64,000 nt of DNA from Thermoproteota archaeon (GTDB lineage Archaea > Thermoproteota > Nitrososphaeria > Nitrososphaerales > Nitrosopumilaceae): NCBI GenBank assembly GCA_003352285.1, contig QQVN01000005.1, forward strand, positions 1-64,000, in the 5' to 3' direction. The position numbers and the translations under genes were made by a program. Below, piece after piece: positions 46,962 through 54,727 of this stretch (its first letter is position 1; each line of letters starts with the position of its first letter). The notes under the pieces are model-generated. The model made no database searches, was not told the DNA's origin, and was given only the letters and a program-made list of their open reading frames with translations.

Positions 46962-47622
46962 AGTCTTTTTTATCGTCATTGACATCATCTAATGTCCAAG
47001 GAGCAAATTTACCTAAAATTTTTGCCCAGTCTAGTCGTAAAAGTAGAATTACAACACCAGTAAGCATTCCTCCAAAACCAATTATGCCAATGTAAATTGG
47101 TGTTGCATCATCAATGTCTTCTAGGAATGGGTCTACAAGGGACAATCCCAAAAAATGAGATATTAGAACTATCACATAGCTAAGCACGAGTTTTCCAGTA
47201 AACGTTGCAATAAAGAATCGCTTTGGATTATACTTTGCAAGTCCTAGTGGAACATATACTAGATCATCAGGTATAGGAGTAGCTGCAGCAAAAAAGGCAG
47301 CCCCTGCACCATATCGCTTTACTAGTCTTTCAAATGGCCTCATACGTTTTCTTGTTTTTTCAGTAATTATCTTGCGGCCACCATAGCTGACATAGAAGAT
47401 GATTTGCTTTGCAGCGGTAGATGTAATAGCAGATATTATTGCAAGAACATGAATGTTGAATTGGTCCCCAACGGCCATTGTTGCCAGTAAAAGAAACGAC
47501 GGGAGAGGGACAAATGGAACAAGAGAACCAAAAAAACTCACCAGTGTTAAACCAAAGTAACCAACTTCAGGTGCGAATGGAAACAAATCAGAAAAATCCA
47601 CACAACAACGAGTGGTCAGCAT
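46951..47622 (-). CDS. DedA/VTT-family membrane protein
   Basis: 223 residues with about five transmembrane segments. LVSFFGSLVPFVPLPSFLLLATM near the N-terminus and the VTT-type reentrant region RYGAGAAFFAAATPIPDDLVYVPLGLAKYNPKRFF are typical of DedA/VTT scramblase-like proteins. Acidic cytoplasmic tail. The TATA-like TTTTTTATAG lies only about 12 bp before ATG 47622, so the true start may be slightly downstream (GTG 47601). Confidence 0.82.
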   Translation of the reverse strand: MLTTRCCVDFSDLFPFAPEVGYFGLTLVSFFGSLVPFVPLPSFLLLATMAVGDQFNIHVLAIISAITSTAAKQIIFYVSYGGRKIITEKTRKRMRPFERLVKRYGAGAAFFAAATPIPDDLVYVPLGLAKYNPKRFFIATFTGKLVLSYVIVLISHFLGLSLVDPFLEDIDDATPIYIGIIGFGGMLTGVVILLLRLDWAKILGKFAPWTLDDVNDDKKDSKD

Positions 47623-47685
47623 TATTTAACTATAAAAAATGAGATACATGTTTGATTTTCATAATCATTAAAATAACATATTCTG

Positions 47686-48072
47686 GTGAAACTACTATTG
47701 GCTAAAAAAAATTATAGTGAAATCCCAATAGCTATTGCAAAGATTAGTCCATACATTAGATTTGTAGGAGTAATTGGTTCAAGCGGCGAACTATTATCAT
47801 ATTTTAGAAGATCAGATCTAAAGCCACTTCTAAATGCAAAAAATACACATTACCAATTCTCTCATATTGCAATTAAAACTGATTTAGAAGCATTTTTTGA
47901 TAAGAGTTTAGGAGAGGTGGAATTTGTTTGGGAGGAAAGAAAAAAGGTTCAAACCATCTCATTTGCAATAAAAAAGATCAGAATTTGGATATCAATTGAC
48001 AAAAAAGTTGTTCGTAGTGAAGTGTTAAGAATTATAGATTCTTGTCTTCCAATAGTGAAGCTTTACTCATAG
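47686..48072 (+). CDS. Conserved small archaeal protein, repeated family member 3 (DUF6659-like)
   Basis: 128 residues. Family pattern: IRFVGVIGSSGELLSYFRR then LEAFFDKSLGEVEFVWEERKK and TISFAIKKIRIWISID. The glycine pair of other copies (LIxGG) is replaced by LLSYFRR. GTG start as given; TTG 47698 is an alternative. Its 3' end overlaps the convergent ABC gene by 10 bp. Function unknown. Confidence 0.72.
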   Translation: MKLLLAKKNYSEIPIAIAKISPYIRFVGVIGSSGELLSYFRRSDLKPLLNAKNTHYQFSHIAIKTDLEAFFDKSLGEVEFVWEERKKVQTISFAIKKIRIWISIDKKVVRSEVLRIIDSCLPIVKLYS

Positions 48073-48995
48073 AGCCAGCATTTTACATATCCGGTTTCAG
48101 TTGAAAAATTTGGAGGATCTTTTTTACATTTTTCAAATGCCATTGGGCATCTATCAATAAATCGACATTCTGATTTTGGTTCTAAAAGACTTGGAGGATC
48201 ACCTGGAATAAATTTTGGTTTATCACCATGTAGTCTTGGAATGGATTCCAACAATCCTTTTGTGTATGGATGTTTGGGATTTTTGTAGATATAATTAGAG
48301 GAACCAAATTCTATCATTTGACCGCCATACATAATTCCAATCACATCTGCAATCTCAGACAATATTGCAAGATCATGAGTGATTAGCATTATTGACATGC
48401 CTTCTTTTTTTAATTTCTTTAGCAAGTTGATTATTTGTGCCTGAATAAGAACATCTAATGCAGTAGTAGGTTCATCAGCAATTACAAATTTTGGTTTTAG
48501 TAATAATCCCATTGCGATAATTACACGTTGTTTCATACCACCACTTAGCTCATGAGGATATTTCTGCAAAACAGATTCATCAAGGTTAACTGCATTCATT
48601 ACATCAAGAATCACTTTTTTTGAGTCCCCATCAAAATGATGTTGTCTTAGTATCTCTTGGAATTGTTCATTTATTGAAAAAACAGGATCAAGGGAATTCA
48701 TTGCGCCCTGAAATATCATGGATATTTTTTTCCATCGAAAAACTTTCTCAAATTTATTTTCAGGTAAATCCAACAAAGAGTCATTCTCAAAGATTATCTT
48801 TCCAGAAGTGATTTTACCACCTTGTAACATTCGTATTATTGAAAGCCCAAGAGTACTCTTTCCACATGCGCTCTCACCGGCAATTCCTATTGATTGTCCA
48901 TTATCTAAAGCAAATGAGAGATTCTCTACTGCATGGATATTTCCTTTTGAAGTAGGATAAACTACGGATAATCCATCAACTGAGAGAAATGTCAT
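48063..48995 (-). CDS. Dipeptide/oligopeptide ABC transporter ATP-binding protein (DppD/OppD-like)
   Basis: 310 residues with Walker A GESACGKST, Q-loop MIFQGAMNSLDP, signature LSGGMKQR, Walker B FVIADEPTTALD and H-loop MLITHD, plus the C-terminal oligopeptide-transporter extension with cysteines (ECRFIDRCPMAFEKC, CWLYE) that in some homologues binds an Fe-S cluster. The permease and second ATPase expected for a complete system are not in the neighbourhood. Confidence 0.93.
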   Translation of the reverse strand: MTFLSVDGLSVVYPTSKGNIHAVENLSFALDNGQSIGIAGESACGKSTLGLSIIRMLQGGKITSGKIIFENDSLLDLPENKFEKVFRWKKISMIFQGAMNSLDPVFSINEQFQEILRQHHFDGDSKKVILDVMNAVNLDESVLQKYPHELSGGMKQRVIIAMGLLLKPKFVIADEPTTALDVLIQAQIINLLKKLKKEGMSIMLITHDLAILSEIADVIGIMYGGQMIEFGSSNYIYKNPKHPYTKGLLESIPRLHGDKPKFIPGDPPSLLEPKSECRFIDRCPMAFEKCKKDPPNFSTETGYVKCWLYE

Positions 48996-49038
48996 GTATA
49001 CTCAAAGGTATGCAAGTATTTTGGTTTTAATTGAAACT

Positions 49039-49398
49039 TTATTTTATTATTTTTAGAATTTTTTTTGGTAAGGTACCATAATCAGCATCAGGTTCTGCTA
49101 CCACATACAAAACATCATTACCGTGTAGAAAACTCAACGCGAGTGCTCTCTCTCGGGCCGCCAGGGCAAACTGAACCGAGCCTAGTTGTCTATCAAACTC
49201 TTTTCTCATCTTTACTCTCAAAGCCAGTTCCATAAACAGCATTTCGTCGTCTTTTTCTGTCTCTAGTGGTTCAACACCTTCTTTCATGCCGCCTGCAATC
49301 AGTCTTCCACGCTCATTAATCACTGCAGCAAAACGGACTTTAGGGTCTAAATCCTTAATTTTCGCACAAATATCCTCTAGTTTACTAATATCGGCCAT
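49039..49398 (-). CDS. Conserved small archaeal protein, repeated family member 4 (DUF6659-like)
   Basis: 119 residues: KVRFAAVINERGRLIAGGMKEG then KMRKEFDRQLGSVQFALAAR and LSFLHGNDVLYVVAEPD. Of the copies in the window it is closest to the one at 9700 (shared RKEFDxxLG, AARR/AARE, ISAEP/VAEPD). Divergently transcribed from phaE across a 55-bp gap with a single TATA block. Function unknown. Confidence 0.78.
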   Translation of the reverse strand: MADISKLEDICAKIKDLDPKVRFAAVINERGRLIAGGMKEGVEPLETEKDDEMLFMELALRVKMRKEFDRQLGSVQFALAARERALALSFLHGNDVLYVVAEPDADYGTLPKKILKIIK

Positions 49399-49420
49399 AT
49401 CTCAACTTTCAGTCAATACA

Positions 49421-49431
49421 GCTATTTATTG
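49421..49431. promoter_or_regulatory. Shared TATA element between divergent genes 49398(-) and 49454(+)
   Basis: AGCTATTTATT is the only TATA-like block between start codons 56 bp apart; its centre is about 27-28 bp from each. Third example of this arrangement in the window. Confidence 0.6.
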
Positions 49432-49453
49432 CGATCGAATTATAACGTTCAAC

Positions 49454-50029
49454 GTGAAGAATCAGTTTTCAGATCCTAAGGATTACTATAAGCACGTATC
49501 ATTGTTTTGGACAGACCTCATCAATTTGATGTACAGTAAGCCGCAAGCCCTGATGTCAGTAGGTCCTATGAGAAACTTTGCTGAAAATGCAAAAAAGATC
49601 TCAATAGAGTTAATGGAGTCAAATGAGGATTTGGCAGAATTTAATGAGCACCTTACCGAATATTACAAGCAGCTAAATGAGACATGGGTAGAGGCTCAAA
49701 AAAAGGTCAACCTAAAGATTCCAGAGATTCCCCACGATGCAGAAAACTATGAGGCATACAAGAGAGTTTGGATTGACATCTTTGATAACGACTTTACAGA
49801 GTTATTTGACTCAAAGCACTTTGGAGAAAATTATGGTCACCTTGTTTCAAAGGAGTTAGAATTAACAAAACATTGGAATAATATAATGAACGTAGTACTA
49901 CAATCGGCTAATCTGCCAAACAAGCAAGAGATGGACGAGGTTTATAGGGAAATTCATTCCTTAAGAAAACGAGTATCAAAGCTAGAGGCAAAAGTTAGAC
50001 AGTACGAATCAAAAGAAAAGGGAAAGTAA
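49454..50029 (+). CDS. phaE: PHA synthase subunit PhaE-like
   Basis: 191 residues from GTG 49454 (KNQFSDPKDYYKHVSLFWTD). Helical, with features of the PhaE subunit of class III PHA synthases: FNEHLTEYYKQLNETWVEAQKK, RVWIDIFDNDFTELFDS and a C-terminal coiled coil SLRKRVSKLEAKVRQ. Start chosen by the TATA 27 bp upstream, which rules out longer in-frame extensions to 49286. Directly precedes phaC (1 bp). PhaE is needed for PhaC activity and granule association. Confidence 0.87.
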   Translation: MKNQFSDPKDYYKHVSLFWTDLINLMYSKPQALMSVGPMRNFAENAKKISIELMESNEDLAEFNEHLTEYYKQLNETWVEAQKKVNLKIPEIPHDAENYEAYKRVWIDIFDNDFTELFDSKHFGENYGHLVSKELELTKHWNNIMNVVLQSANLPNKQEMDEVYREIHSLRKRVSKLEAKVRQYESKEKGK

Positions 50030-50030
50030 A

Positions 50031-51104
50031 ATGAAAAAAATTTCAAATGAATTAAACATAGACCCAAAGATGGTAGAAAATATTCTAAAGTTTAGTAGTA
50101 ATATCACAAGGGCATCAGAATTAGTATCAGCCCCAGATGAGTTTAATTTTGATAGTACAGAATATGATGTTGCATATCAAGAAGACAAAGCCAGACTGTT
50201 ACACTACAAGCCATTAACAAAGACACAACATAAAACACCAATCATAATTGCATATGCACTGATAAACAGATATCATATTTTAGACATTCATCCAAAAAAG
50301 AGTTGGGTGAAGAATCTTTTGGAGCAAGGATTCAACGTATACATGTTAGACTGGGGAAGTCCATCAAACATGGACAAGTATCTTGACTTTGATGATTATG
50401 TTAATGGGTACTTGCACAATTCTGTTGAATTTATTAAAAATGAATCAAGTGTAGAACAGGTTTCATTACAAGGGTATTGTACAGGCGGAACTATAGCAAC
50501 AACGTATGCAGCACTGCATCCAGAGAATGTAAAAAACTTCATTGCAACAGCGCCAGTAATTGATGGTTGGAAGGATACTACTGTAATTAGCAACCTTGCA
50601 AAGCACATGGATGTAGACAAAATGGTTGAAATTGTCGGTAACATGCCTCCAGAATTCATGTATTACTGTTTTTCAGTTCTAAAACCATTTGAGCAAGGAA
50701 TTGAAAAGTATCTGAACTTCTTTAACAATATAGAAAATGAGAATTTTGTAGATAATTTCATGAGAGTCGAAAAATGGCTTTCAGAAACACCGCCTATTCC
50801 AGGGGCACTATTCAAGCAGTGGATTAGAGACATCTATCAAGAAAATCTTTTGATTCAAAACAAGATGTATGTTGGGAATCAACATGTGTCATTGAAAAAC
50901 ATCACCATGCCAATCTTTACTCAGGTGGCAGTTGGTGATCATCTAGTATCACCAGAATGCAGTATGCCATTGCACTACGGAGTAGGAAGCGAAGACAAAA
51001 CCATACGAATCTATCCAACAGGGCATGTCGGAATGATTGCAAGTTCCTTATCACAAAAAGTTGTTCTACCAGAATTGGGCGAATGGCTTAAGGAAAGATC
51101 TTAA
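50031..51104 (+). CDS. phaC: Polyhydroxyalkanoate synthase, class III PhaC
   Basis: 357 residues. Alpha/beta-hydrolase fold with lipase-like box GYCTGG, nucleophile C150; catalytic Asp in VAVGDHLVSPE and His in TGHVGMIA near the C-terminus. YALINRYHILDIHPKKSWVKNLLEQGFNVYMLDWG is typical of PhaC. Polymerizes (R)-3-hydroxyacyl-CoA into storage granules, with PhaE encoded just upstream. Confidence 0.96.
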   Translation: MKKISNELNIDPKMVENILKFSSNITRASELVSAPDEFNFDSTEYDVAYQEDKARLLHYKPLTKTQHKTPIIIAYALINRYHILDIHPKKSWVKNLLEQGFNVYMLDWGSPSNMDKYLDFDDYVNGYLHNSVEFIKNESSVEQVSLQGYCTGGTIATTYAALHPENVKNFIATAPVIDGWKDTTVISNLAKHMDVDKMVEIVGNMPPEFMYYCFSVLKPFEQGIEKYLNFFNNIENENFVDNFMRVEKWLSETPPIPGALFKQWIRDIYQENLLIQNKMYVGNQHVSLKNITMPIFTQVAVGDHLVSPECSMPLHYGVGSEDKTIRIYPTGHVGMIASSLSQKVVLPELGEWLKERS

Positions 51105-51149
51105 AATAAATAAAAATTTTAAAAAACAAAAAGAATGGATTCTAACCTT

Positions 51150-51563
51150 CTATTTTGAAGGTGTGAATGTAGAAATCCATGATTGCATGATATTTTTGTT
51201 CATATCTGCAAATGTTTTTGCATTATCGTTGAATGTCTTGATGTTTTGTTGTGTTGCATTAATTGCTGCTAATGCTACTTGATTGTTAACTGCTGTACCT
51301 TTTAGTAGTTGTTCTGTGGTCTCATCAATTACTTTAAGGGTTGCTTCTGGAATGTTGGAAGTAATTCCTGCTCTTCTAGAAGTCTCTTTCTGTGTGGTAA
51401 ATGAAGAATTTACTAGATTCTCAACTGCTTGCAAGTATTCTTGTTGTACATTAGAAATTGCTTGATGATATTGTGGTACTGCTTTCTTTATAGAATCAAT
51501 ACATTTGTCAACGTTTTGCTGATATACTGCGAAGATATCTTTTGGACTATTTGTGCTACTCAT
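51150..51563 (-). CDS. phaP: Phasin-like granule protein
   Basis: 137 residues, all helical, amphipathic, no signal peptide: AVPQYHQAISNVQQEYLQAV, FTTQKETSRRAG, NQVALAAINATQQNIKTFNDNAKTFADMNKNI. This composition and size match phasins, which coat PHA granules. It lies 45 bp from phaC (convergent) and is the second gene of an operon whose first member carries an AbrB domain. Translation probably uses the SD GGAGGTGA. Sequence identity to bacterial phasins is not evident, so the call rests on context plus amphipathic helices. Confidence 0.72.
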   Translation of the reverse strand: MSSTNSPKDIFAVYQQNVDKCIDSIKKAVPQYHQAISNVQQEYLQAVENLVNSSFTTQKETSRRAGITSNIPEATLKVIDETTEQLLKGTAVNNQVALAAINATQQNIKTFNDNAKTFADMNKNIMQSWISTFTPSK

Positions 51564-51982
51564 TGTTTCACCTCCTTATTGGTTGACTTTTTTAAAATTG
51601 GAAGGATAACGACCTGAATGAGATCTCCTTCCTTGATTCCGAGTGCATCGCGTTCGGCCTCTGGAATTGAAATTCTACCATTACTTCCCACGGTAGTTTT
51701 GTAAGCTCCCCAATTTAGGAAATTTGGGAGATTTTGATTCATTTGGAAAATTTGTTCAAATCCCTTGGATTGCATATTATTCATATTTTGCATCATGTTC
51801 TCTTGTGCTTCACTAGTCTTGCTTGCAACTTCCTGTAAGGTTACCAGTGGATCAAATTTGTTCTGGTTTTGTTGCATAAGGTCGCCAAAATTTTTCATAA
51901 ATTCAGCTTGGGCTTTTCCGCTCTTCTGAATCCATTCTTTGAACATTTCAGCAGGATTGTATTGGTATTGATTACCACTCAT
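51560..51982 (-). CDS. Phasin-like helical domain fused to an AbrB DNA-binding domain (PhaR-like)
   Basis: 140 residues. Residues 1-90 are helical and Gln/Asn/Met-rich (EFMKNFGDLMQQNQNKF, AQENMMQNMNNMQSKGFEQIF), resembling the phasin-like partners of PHA granules. Residues about 92-127 form a SpoVT/AbrB domain (YKTTVGSNGRISIPEAERDALGIKEGD). First gene of a two-gene operon with the phasin. In haloarchaea an AbrB-type PhaR represses phaRP and responds to granule state; this protein is a plausible analogue, able to bind granules by one end and DNA by the other. Confidence 0.78.
   Translation of the reverse strand: MSGNQYQYNPAEMFKEWIQKSGKAQAEFMKNFGDLMQQNQNKFDPLVTLQEVASKTSEAQENMMQNMNNMQSKGFEQIFQMNQNLPNFLNWGAYKTTVGSNGRISIPEAERDALGIKEGDLIQVVILPILKKSTNKEVKQ
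51568..51575 (-). promoter_or_regulatory. Strong Shine-Dalgarno for the phasin gene
   Basis: On the minus strand GGAGGTGA lies 4 nt before ATG 51561-51563 and inside the upstream gene, complementary to the 16S 3' end (TCACCTCC). The upstream stop and this ATG overlap as ATGA. Such strong sites are rare here, where first genes are leaderless. Confidence 0.85.
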
Positions 51983-51995
51983 AGGTAATAGAAGG

Positions 51996-52013
51996 TTATA
52001 TGAGGAATATAAA
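51996..52013 (-). promoter_or_regulatory. phaR/phaP operon promoter with palindrome over the TATA box
   Basis: Minus-strand CTTTATATTCC (TATA, about 27 bp before ATG 51982) overlaps a perfect inverted repeat TTATAT-GAGGA-ATATAA (51996-52012). AbrB-type proteins bind AT-rich symmetric sites, so this could be an autoregulatory operator. Confidence 0.55.
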
Positions 52014-52020
52014 GGTATTG

Positions 52021-52803
52021 TTATTCATCAAGAAAACTAACCACCGTTTCTGCAAATAATTCCGGATTATCGACATATGGAGTATGACCTGATTGCTCCA
52101 TATTGAAAAATCTGCAGTCTTTGATTGCTGAAACAAAGCTGCTCGAGTACTCAAAAGGGATGACAGGATCCTTATCGCCCCAAATTATCAATGTTGGAGA
52201 TTCTATTTTTTTTAGATGCTCAGTAATGTCGTTTGCATTTTTGAGTCCAAGCAAGGTCGACATAAATGCCATCTTTGCATTTGGAAGCTGCATTCTTTCT
52301 ATGAAGCCATGGATAATTTTTGGGTCCACTTGTTCATCTCCAGCCATATGCTCAAATGCATTTTTTGCACCTTCCTCAGTCGGATATAATGCAGCCATAA
52401 CATATGCTTCCAATGCAGGAGTCGATTGAGACATTGCACCAGACGGAGATACAAGAACTAGTTTTTTGACATTATCATACTTTGAAACATATTCAGCACA
52501 AATCTGTCCTCCAAGAGATGATCCGATCAGATAGGGTGAAGAAACTGAGATCTCCTTTAGAAAGTGCGAAAGAAAATCTACAAAAAATTCTTGAGTGTAA
52601 TCAACTAGTGGTTTATCACTTAATCCAAAGCCTATGAGATCAGGAACTATAACACGATAATGTTTTTCAAAAATGGGAATAACATACTCCCATCTTTCAG
52701 CTGATGCACCCAATCCATGAATTAGTACTAAAACTTCCTTACCCTCTCCAGATTCAAGGTAACGAATTTTGTTTCCATCAACGGAAACAAATTTCTCCTC
52801 CAT
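52021..52803 (-). CDS. Alpha/beta hydrolase
   Basis: 260 residues with HGLGAS oxyanion region, nucleophile elbow GSSLGG, IIWGDKDPVIP acid motif and QSGHTPYVDNP catalytic His. Lies directly upstream of the phaR-like gene on the same strand, so it may be a PHA depolymerase or 3-hydroxyacid esterase, but soluble carboxylesterases of this type are very diverse. Leaderless, with AATTTATC 26 bp upstream of ATG 52803. Confidence 0.87.
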   Translation of the reverse strand: MEEKFVSVDGNKIRYLESGEGKEVLVLIHGLGASAERWEYVIPIFEKHYRVIVPDLIGFGLSDKPLVDYTQEFFVDFLSHFLKEISVSSPYLIGSSLGGQICAEYVSKYDNVKKLVLVSPSGAMSQSTPALEAYVMAALYPTEEGAKNAFEHMAGDEQVDPKIIHGFIERMQLPNAKMAFMSTLLGLKNANDITEHLKKIESPTLIIWGDKDPVIPFEYSSSFVSAIKDCRFFNMEQSGHTPYVDNPELFAETVVSFLDE

Positions 52804-52919
52804 TAAATGCGTGATGAAAAGCAGGTAGATAAATTCTCTTGTTTAGTAAAATTAGATTCGAAAAACGTTTTTGGGACCAAGGGATATAAACAACTTTATT
52901 TGAAATTATGTGATTTATC

Positions 52920-53438
52920 ATGCAAGTTCCAATTTGTGGTTTTGATGCAAAAAATGCAGTTTTATGTCCACAATGTGAGTCAAAGGTAGAATCAGGAGAT
53001 CTTACTAAAGCAGATGTGGATGCATCAATTATCTTAGCTAGATTGGCAAAGACGCACCCACAGATTGATCAATTTACCTTACATGGATGCAAAGAGATAG
53101 ATGGAAATTTCATACTGCGACTTAGTAAACAAGATATTCAAAAAATCAGACAAAGTAGAACATTATACGGATTAATTCAGGGAGAGTTTTCAGGAAAAAT
53201 TTGGCTTGTTGAAGAAGGAGAAAATAACAAGCGATTCATAGAGGACCTCTTCTTTCCAACAAAGGTATTATCGATAAATTCAGTTTGGGCTCCGGGAGGA
53301 ATTGAGAAGACAAAGGCCGTAATTTCAGGCAAATGGACTCCTAGATTCCCGATTGATGTTGAAAAGGTCTCTCAAATCGTCAAAAATGCTAGAAATCTTG
53401 ATATCGAAATTGAGTTTGAAGAATCACGGAGAAACTAA
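52920..53438 (+). CDS. Zinc-binding protein with a possible KH-like domain
   Basis: 172 residues. N-terminus MQVPICGFDAKNAVLCPQCE (CxxC plus an earlier Cys) suggests a zinc knuckle; the middle LRLSKQDIQKIRQSRTLYGLI and VWAPGGIEKTKAVISGKW may form an RNA-binding KH-like fold as in NusA-type proteins, but I cannot confirm this. It precedes aspS by 2 bp, so the two are cotranscribed and the protein is probably translation- or transcription-related. Confidence 0.6.
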   Translation: MQVPICGFDAKNAVLCPQCESKVESGDLTKADVDASIILARLAKTHPQIDQFTLHGCKEIDGNFILRLSKQDIQKIRQSRTLYGLIQGEFSGKIWLVEEGENNKRFIEDLFFPTKVLSINSVWAPGGIEKTKAVISGKWTPRFPIDVEKVSQIVKNARNLDIEIEFEESRRN

Positions 53439-53440
53439 TT

Positions 53441-54727
53441 TTGGGATTTGCAAAGACTCACGATATATCAGATGTCAATTCTTCTTTGATTAATTCGGAA
53501 GTCAAGCTTGGTGGATGGATAGAGGATTTACGAAAACTTGGCAAGATGACATTTCTCACATTACGAGATGTCTCTGGAATTATCCAAGTGATTGTAAAAG
53601 GAGACCTAAATGACAAGCTTGAAGGACTAAACAGACAAAGCGTAGTTTTCATTAAAGGTAAAGTTCAGGATACCAAAGCCAAAGATTTTGATTGTGAGAT
53701 ATTAGCACTGGATATAGATGTTTTAGGAAAAGCAATTCATCCTTTACCAATTGATCCTATTGGCAGACTAGAAAGCAACATCGACAATAGGCTAAACTCT
53801 AGAGCATTAGACATGCGAAACCAAAAGACTGCATCAATCTTTAAGCTTCGTCACCATGTTTTAGCAATATTACGAAAGACATTATCAGAAAAACGATTCA
53901 TAGAGATCACTACACCAAAGATCATTGGGAGTGCAAGCGAAGGTGGTGCAAATCTTTTTTCACTTGAATATTTTGGTAGAACTGCATACCTTGCACAGAG
54001 TCCGCAGCTATACAAAGAACAGATGACAATCGGTTTAGAGCGAGTCTTTGAGATTTCAAATTTTTATCGAGCAGAAAAGTCACACACTGGAAGACACCTT
54101 AGTGAATTTACAAGTGTAGACATTGAAGCTGCATTTATGGATTATACAGATGTGATGAATGTTTTAGAGTCACTTGTCATGGAGGTTTACAAATTTACAT
54201 CAGAGAATTGCAAAAAAGAACAAGAAGAGATTGAACATGAGATTAAAGTTCCTAATGAACCATTTGATCGTGTTACATATTCCCAAGTAGTTGATGAGTT
54301 AAAATCACTTGATCAAAAGATAGAGTTTGGAGATGACCTTCTTGATTCTCACTTAAGACTAGTTGGTGAAAAGCATCCAGGATTTTATTTTCTAACAGAC
54401 TGGCCATTGAAGCTAAAACCATTTTACATTAGAGAAAAAGATGAAGATGCAACATTGTCTCGCTCCTTTGATTTACAATATGGATACTTGGAGTTATCAT
54501 CTGGAGGAACGAGACTGCATGATCCTGCAATACTCAAGGCACGACTAGCAGAGCAGGGATTAGACCCTGCCTTGTTTAAAGACCACTTGCAGGCATTTGA
54601 TTGGGGAATGCCTCCTCATTCTGGATGGGGGTTAGGTCTTGATAGATTAATGACTACTCTTATAGGAATTGACAATGTAAGAGAAGTTGTACTGTATCCT
54701 AGAGACCCAGACAGATTAAGACCCTAA
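53441..54727 (+). CDS. aspS: Aspartyl-tRNA synthetase
   Basis: 428 residues. OB-fold anticodon domain (KLGGWIEDLRKLGKMTFLTLRD), then class II motifs: FIEITTPKIIGSASEGGANLF, RVFEISNFYRAEKSHTGRHLSEFTSVD (motif 2) and SGWGLGLDRLMTTLIG (motif 3). The archaeal/eukaryotic form, which may be discriminating or also charge tRNA-Asn. TTG start, 2 bp after the preceding stop. Confidence 0.96.
   Translation: MGFAKTHDISDVNSSLINSEVKLGGWIEDLRKLGKMTFLTLRDVSGIIQVIVKGDLNDKLEGLNRQSVVFIKGKVQDTKAKDFDCEILALDIDVLGKAIHPLPIDPIGRLESNIDNRLNSRALDMRNQKTASIFKLRHHVLAILRKTLSEKRFIEITTPKIIGSASEGGANLFSLEYFGRTAYLAQSPQLYKEQMTIGLERVFEISNFYRAEKSHTGRHLSEFTSVDIEAAFMDYTDVMNVLESLVMEVYKFTSENCKKEQEEIEHEIKVPNEPFDRVTYSQVVDELKSLDQKIEFGDDLLDSHLRLVGEKHPGFYFLTDWPLKLKPFYIREKDEDATLSRSFDLQYGYLELSSGGTRLHDPAILKARLAEQGLDPALFKDHLQAFDWGMPPHSGWGLGLDRLMTTLIGIDNVREVVLYPRDPDRLRP

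Follow-up and report, generated by a model that had tools for sequence, protein, structure and literature searches.

A PhaR-type AbrB protein and a predicted operator of 10-bp periodicity at the PHA locus of ammonia-oxidising archaea

What controls the formation of PHA granules in ammonia-oxidising archaea? PHA synthase is widespread in these organisms (PMC4084955), and the literature that we searched yielded no PHA regulator for them; in a paper on carbon limitation in Nitrososphaera viennensis we found no mention of PHA, PHB, phasin or AbrB. A haloarchaeal system offers a point of reference. According to two later papers, PhaR of Haloferax mediterranei, which has a C-terminal AbrB domain, is a PHA-responsive, autoregulated repressor of phaRP (Cai et al. 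2015, cited in PMC9049629 and PMC7137286); the phaRP promoter contains four tandem repeats, the protein is located on granules, and promoter activity is lower in the absence of PHA synthase and higher in the absence of PhaR (PMC9049629, PMC7137286).

The locus considered here lies in a 64,000-nucleotide stretch of a Nitrosopumilaceae contig (QQVN01000005.1; hereafter the window). The sequence-only reading had proposed that a reverse-strand gene at 51560..51982 fuses a phasin-like helical part to an AbrB domain and encodes a repressor of its own operon. Family searches bear out the architecture: the 140-aa product consists of about 90 helical residues (codons 1–91, 51710..51982) and a C-terminal, PhaR-type AbrB domain (codons 92–131, 51590..51709) with the motif YKTTVGSNGRISIPEAERDALGIKEGDLIQ, and residues 95–125 match two AbrB-type families, both above their curated cut-offs (TIGR01439, E=4.7e-8; PF04014, E=1.8e-6), while residues 1–90 have no family match in Pfam or NCBIfam. 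An AlphaFold2 model based on 34 sequences places helices at 9–37, 44–70 and 75–83, followed by an E-H-E segment at 91–125 (E91–96, H107–113, E120–125); block mean pLDDT is mostly 80–88, the model as a whole is weak (pTM 0.34), and the best match in a fold search of the PDB, a small double-zeta barrel protein, is weak as well (E=0.08). The predicted fold has AbrB-like elements, and a model of this quality neither proves nor refutes a swapped hairpin. As for the phasin-like character of the fusion itself, the amphipathicity stands and the kinship does not: the helix at residues 10–37 has a hydrophobic moment of 0.48 versus 0.16 in shuffled sequences, and a profile alignment of the N-terminal half with the neighbouring phasin detects no homology (1% probability). 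Since homology ties this half neither to phasins nor to the N-terminal region of haloarchaeal PhaR, we infer its binding to granules with less confidence than the DNA-binding step.

The surroundings of the gene are those of a PHA locus. Downstream on the same strand lies a 137-aa gene (51150..51563) whose ATG overlaps the TGA stop of the fusion as ATGA and which is preceded by the Shine-Dalgarno-like GGAGGTGA (51568..51575), so that the two genes are likely to be translationally coupled. Its product is predicted to be all-helical by a single-sequence structure model and matches no phasin and no toxin-antitoxin family in Pfam or NCBIfam; we call it phasin-like for its helicity, position and co-occurrence. 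Facing the pair on the forward strand are phaE (49454..50029, class III synthase subunit, a match to PHA_synth_III_E) and phaC (50031..51104, class III PHA synthase, TIGR01836, 413 bits, over cut-off), both running towards the fusion gene, as had been proposed. Upstream of the fusion by 38 bp, and on the same strand, is an alpha/beta hydrolase gene (52021..52803) found at this position in most relatives; its product has a GSSLGG box and its best NCBIfam match is an intracellular PHA depolymerase, at 109 of 300 bits and thus below cut-off. It is a candidate intracellular PHA hydrolase, PhaZ. A search of 47500–54000 against Rfam gave no matches.

The start of phaE calls for a correction. The listed ORF begins at 49286, within the opposite-strand DUF6659 gene, homology starts near residue 44, and a GTG at 49454 stands about 27 nt past a TATA-like box (CTATTTATT); for these reasons GTG 49454 is the more likely start. 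Around that TATA box, at 49415–49450 in the window, there is also a GATC-flanked element (GCGATCTATTTATTGAGATC-like), which recurs upstream of phaE in many relatives (among them L034, L037, L041, L046 and L050); it differs from the PhaR boxes described below, and phaEC may be controlled separately through it. The DUF6659 gene itself (49039–49398) is divergent to phaE, and a short ORF at 47686–48072 resembles it by eye.

The fusion is kept in 124 of 151 Nitrosopumilaceae genomes and is therefore more than a chance arrangement; phaC and the phasin-like protein were each found in 126. Fusion and phaC occur together in 123 genomes, the fusion alone in one (85% complete), phaC alone in three and neither in 24, so that 123 of the 127 genomes with either gene have both; these counts come from a comparison of genome lists in which the last few unlisted genomes were filled in from the totals. 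Most sampled loci preserve the arrangement hydrolase > fusion > phasin < phaC < phaE, with exceptions in which the phasin is missing beside the fusion (L044, L053, L065) or the fusion-phasin pair has moved away from phaEC (G023). Among other Thermoproteota, five more genomes of the same order carry the fusion, all five with phaC, and outside the order no genome in a sample of 300 passed E 1e-9. Many Nitrosopumilaceae encode in addition a second, longer PhaC-like synthase that falls below the class III cut-off and lies distant from the phaR locus (L114–L117, plus matches with open frames of about 430–480 aa).

Is the fusion a relative of haloarchaeal PhaR, as its domain order had suggested? A comparison of the thaumarchaeal and haloarchaeal profiles aligns the AbrB domains with 99% probability and 55% identity over 44 columns, and, with few exceptions, both lineages share a signature, KT-x3-S-x-GRISIP-x-AER, or K-[TAS]-x3-S-x-GRISIP-x2-ER when written more generally. 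The relation holds in both directions. In the window's genome the haloarchaeal profile scores the fusion gene at 4e-20, the second-best AbrB protein reaching 5e-4, and the thaumarchaeal profile finds the phaC-linked PhaRs of three haloarchaeal genomes at 4e-18 or better, with every other AbrB protein of those genomes at 0.5 or worse. Among the AbrB proteins compared, then, the AbrB half is reciprocally closest to haloarchaeal PhaR, and this PhaR-type subgroup, although it belongs to the common AbrB/MazE/SpoVT family of regulators, stands well apart from the four remaining AbrB/MazE matches in the window's genome. By contrast, profile comparison detects no similarity between thaumarchaeal and haloarchaeal N-terminal halves (hhalign, 5% probability), nor between thaumarchaeal phasins and haloarchaeal PhaP; the papers cited do not name a shared N-terminal region as a defining trait of PhaR.

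The haloarchaeal gene also keeps the same company. In 77 haloarchaea, out of 145 searched, the thaumarchaeal profile picks out exactly one gene each, and in the genomes checked this PhaR-type gene lies about 1.4–2.3 kb from phaC. PhaR-type gene and PhaC occur together in 74 genomes, the former alone in three, the latter alone in one and neither in 67, that is, both in 74 of the 78 haloarchaea with either. In a pattern scan of named genomes the best 80 loci come from genomes with haloarchaeal names, apart from a single MAG titled Salinivenus, and nearly all have phaC downstream. Homologues in genomes without PhaC, which would have spoken against the proposed reading, are accordingly rare: one of 124 in Nitrosopumilaceae and three of 77 in haloarchaea. 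The three haloarchaeal genomes with a PhaR-type gene and no PhaC match (G410, G416, G507) may be incomplete assemblies or may reflect a PHA-independent role.

If the AbrB half binds DNA at its own promoter, a site should be visible there. Directly upstream of the ATG, on the reverse strand at 51983..52017, promoter alignment and a matrix predict an operator in which CC recurs four times at intervals of exactly 10 bp (TACCTTTATATTCCTCATATAACCTTCTATTACCT, then ATG), the pairs falling at 52014–52015, 52004–52005, 51994–51995 and 51984–51985. Boxes flank the TATA box (TTTATATT, 52006..52013), whose position, -31 to -24 relative to the ATG, implies a near-leaderless phaR transcript. When 44 non-redundant fusion promoters were aligned on the ATG, CC or GG was present at -23, -13 and -3 in 48, 73 and 77% of them versus 5, 12 and 6% of controls (298 ORFs of the same loci); of the periods 7–13 examined, 10 alone is enriched. 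A promoter matrix trained without the window's genus gives the window's phaR promoter 24.6 bits, the highest score on both strands of the 64 kb, the next being 15.3; without the TATA columns this promoter still ranks first, and the runner-up is this site again, displaced by 10 bp. The repeat is indistinct in two Nitrososphaeraceae-like loci (L149 and L150). In one sister family (L152) the boxes, some 35 bp ahead of the fusion's ATG, are present as GG, on the opposite strand and at about the same 10-bp phase, which suggests that they can work in either orientation.

A related repeat marks unlinked phasin genes. In relatives of the window's organism, many such genes carry TTACCA boxes every 10 bp immediately upstream of TATATATA, placing the boxes upstream of the TATA box, unlike those of phaR promoters. 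Counts of box spacing in 29 of these promoters peak at 10 and 20 bp, those in 71 haloarchaeal phaR upstream regions peak at 10 and 19–20 bp, and 359 control pieces give counts close to zero. The phasin set was collected by homology to phasins and not by the motif, and the 29 promoters counted are those with a TATATA box; the TTACCA motif was first noticed by eye in some of these same 29, and the related genomes are not independent events. The haloarchaeal comparison drew on H. larsenii and others rather than on the repeat sequence reported for H. mediterranei. Across ten whole genomes the strict pattern has nine matches, of which seven immediately precede PHA genes. The phasin-type pattern with two mismatches finds, in 16 genomes, six different phasin promoters along with five unrelated sites. 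The window's own genome has no match to the TTACCA pattern with two mismatches; a single strict match to a phasin-type operator elsewhere in that genome lies within a coding region and was judged to be due to chance. In two genomes of one genus a triple TTACCA repeat of 10-bp period (L281 and L282, 1501–1526) stands at the start of a conserved ORF of 98–102 aa unrelated to PHA, which is either chance or a further target. Near unlinked phasin genes of one genus there is a 99-aa protein of FTENWQK-type repeats (L236 405–704, L237 2329–2628, L238 435–734), possibly another granule protein.

Taken with the haloarchaeal precedent, we read the fusion as the ammonia-oxidiser orthologue of haloarchaeal PhaR, an operator-binding repressor of its own gene and of phasin genes that would be titrated by granules, and give this reading as a whole a probability of about 0.77. 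The AbrB domain would bind short boxes (WTACC/GGTAW core) that are lined up 10 bp apart on one face of the helix and straddle the TATA box and the start of PhaR's own gene, and in the bound state would block TBP/TFB or the polymerase at the start. PhaR would thereby repress both its own gene and the phasin gene coupled to it; in relatives, unlinked phasin genes would be repressed too. Its amphipathic N-terminal region may bind the surface of nascent PHA granules; that surface would then pull PhaR off the DNA, and phasin would be made in proportion to granule surface. Of the autoregulated repressor originally proposed, the predicted DNA binding by the AbrB half at its own promoter is the part well supported by sequence, given the reciprocal similarity to PhaR and the phased repeat; this binding, and with it repression, granule binding and titration, is proposed by analogy with H. 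mediterranei.

The sensor is where another explanation has most room. The helical half might simply oligomerise a repressor of phasin genes that answers to a signal other than the granule surface (for instance acyl-CoA, another protein, or none). This possibility, which we consider unlikely but worth keeping in view, would fit an N-terminal half that is homologous neither to phasins nor to haloarchaeal PhaR N-termini and that is much shorter in one genus, where the whole protein has about 100 aa (L047, L049, L051); the strong amphipathicity of the helix argues against it, as does the haloarchaeal PhaR, reported in the papers cited (PMC9049629, PMC7137286) to be on granules and responsive to PHA. 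A doubt of a different kind concerns the boxes. Their fixed distance from TATA and ATG in phaR promoters could mean that they serve as an element of the core promoter or the start site, recognised by the general transcription machinery or a different regulator rather than by PhaR. We think this improbable: boxes are rare in the 298 controls, none of the 24 TATA-bearing controls has two or more, unlinked phasin promoters place them upstream of the TATA box, and haloarchaea combine the same spacing with a shared PhaR protein.

Known proteins of comparable design were weighed as well. Granule-nucleoid linkers of the PhaM and PhaF kind likewise combine an amphipathic part with a DNA-binding part. 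The fusion could accordingly be mainly a tether that partitions granules, its DNA binding being non-regulatory, and the union of an amphipathic part and a DNA-binding-type domain in a single protein is what one would expect of it; there is no family match to PhaM or PhaF in Pfam or NCBIfam, and a tether would not need phased boxes in the core promoter of its operon or in those of phasin genes. The presence of a specific promoter repeat leads us to favour regulation over linking, and the tether seems slightly less probable even than the core element. Least credible of all is a MazE-type antitoxin: the PF04014 match is compatible with one, yet the partner is a conserved all-helical protein that matches no toxin-antitoxin family, and the gene pair tracks PHA synthase. 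A toxin-antitoxin reading of the locus was rejected, there being no adjacent toxin gene but phasin-like and hydrolase genes as neighbours. Bacterial PhaR of the Ralstonia/Paracoccus type is a phasin repressor proposed to be titrated by granules. It is thus alike in working, but the DNA-binding domain of the window protein is AbrB, unlike that of bacterial PhaR, and the protein matches no bacterial PhaR family in Pfam or NCBIfam. Control of phasin promoters by bacterial PhaR is mentioned in PMC9049629.

The design proposed here, a granule-to-promoter reporter, is not new; it matches haloarchaeal PhaR and has been published for the Haloferax protein (PMC9049629, PMC7137286). The window gene resembles the haloarchaeal one in its C-terminal AbrB domain and signature, in the phasin gene that follows, in linkage to phaEC and near-strict co-occurrence with PhaC, and in the 10-bp tandem repeats of its promoter. 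It differs in its N-terminal sequence and its phasin, which are unrelated to the haloarchaeal ones, in gene order (phaR-phasin is convergent with phaEC here and lies upstream of phaEC on the same strand in haloarchaea), in boxes that run from the TATA box to the ATG, and in that unlinked phasin genes of relatives also carry the repeat. What is added is the membership in the PhaR group, the predicted operator, the prediction that phasin genes of relatives form a regulon, and a box spacing that two phyla apparently have in common. We lean towards the view that Halobacteria and ammonia-oxidising archaea have in common one PHA-control module, protein and operator, in which the AbrB domain and the 10-bp spacing were kept while a different sensor half and different phasins took over, and which runs a dispersed phasin regulon in the ammonia oxidisers. 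The same-spaced repeat in two archaeal phyla is an unusual case of apparent operator conservation, and with a named candidate and a predicted operator the control of carbon storage in ammonia-oxidising archaea becomes testable.
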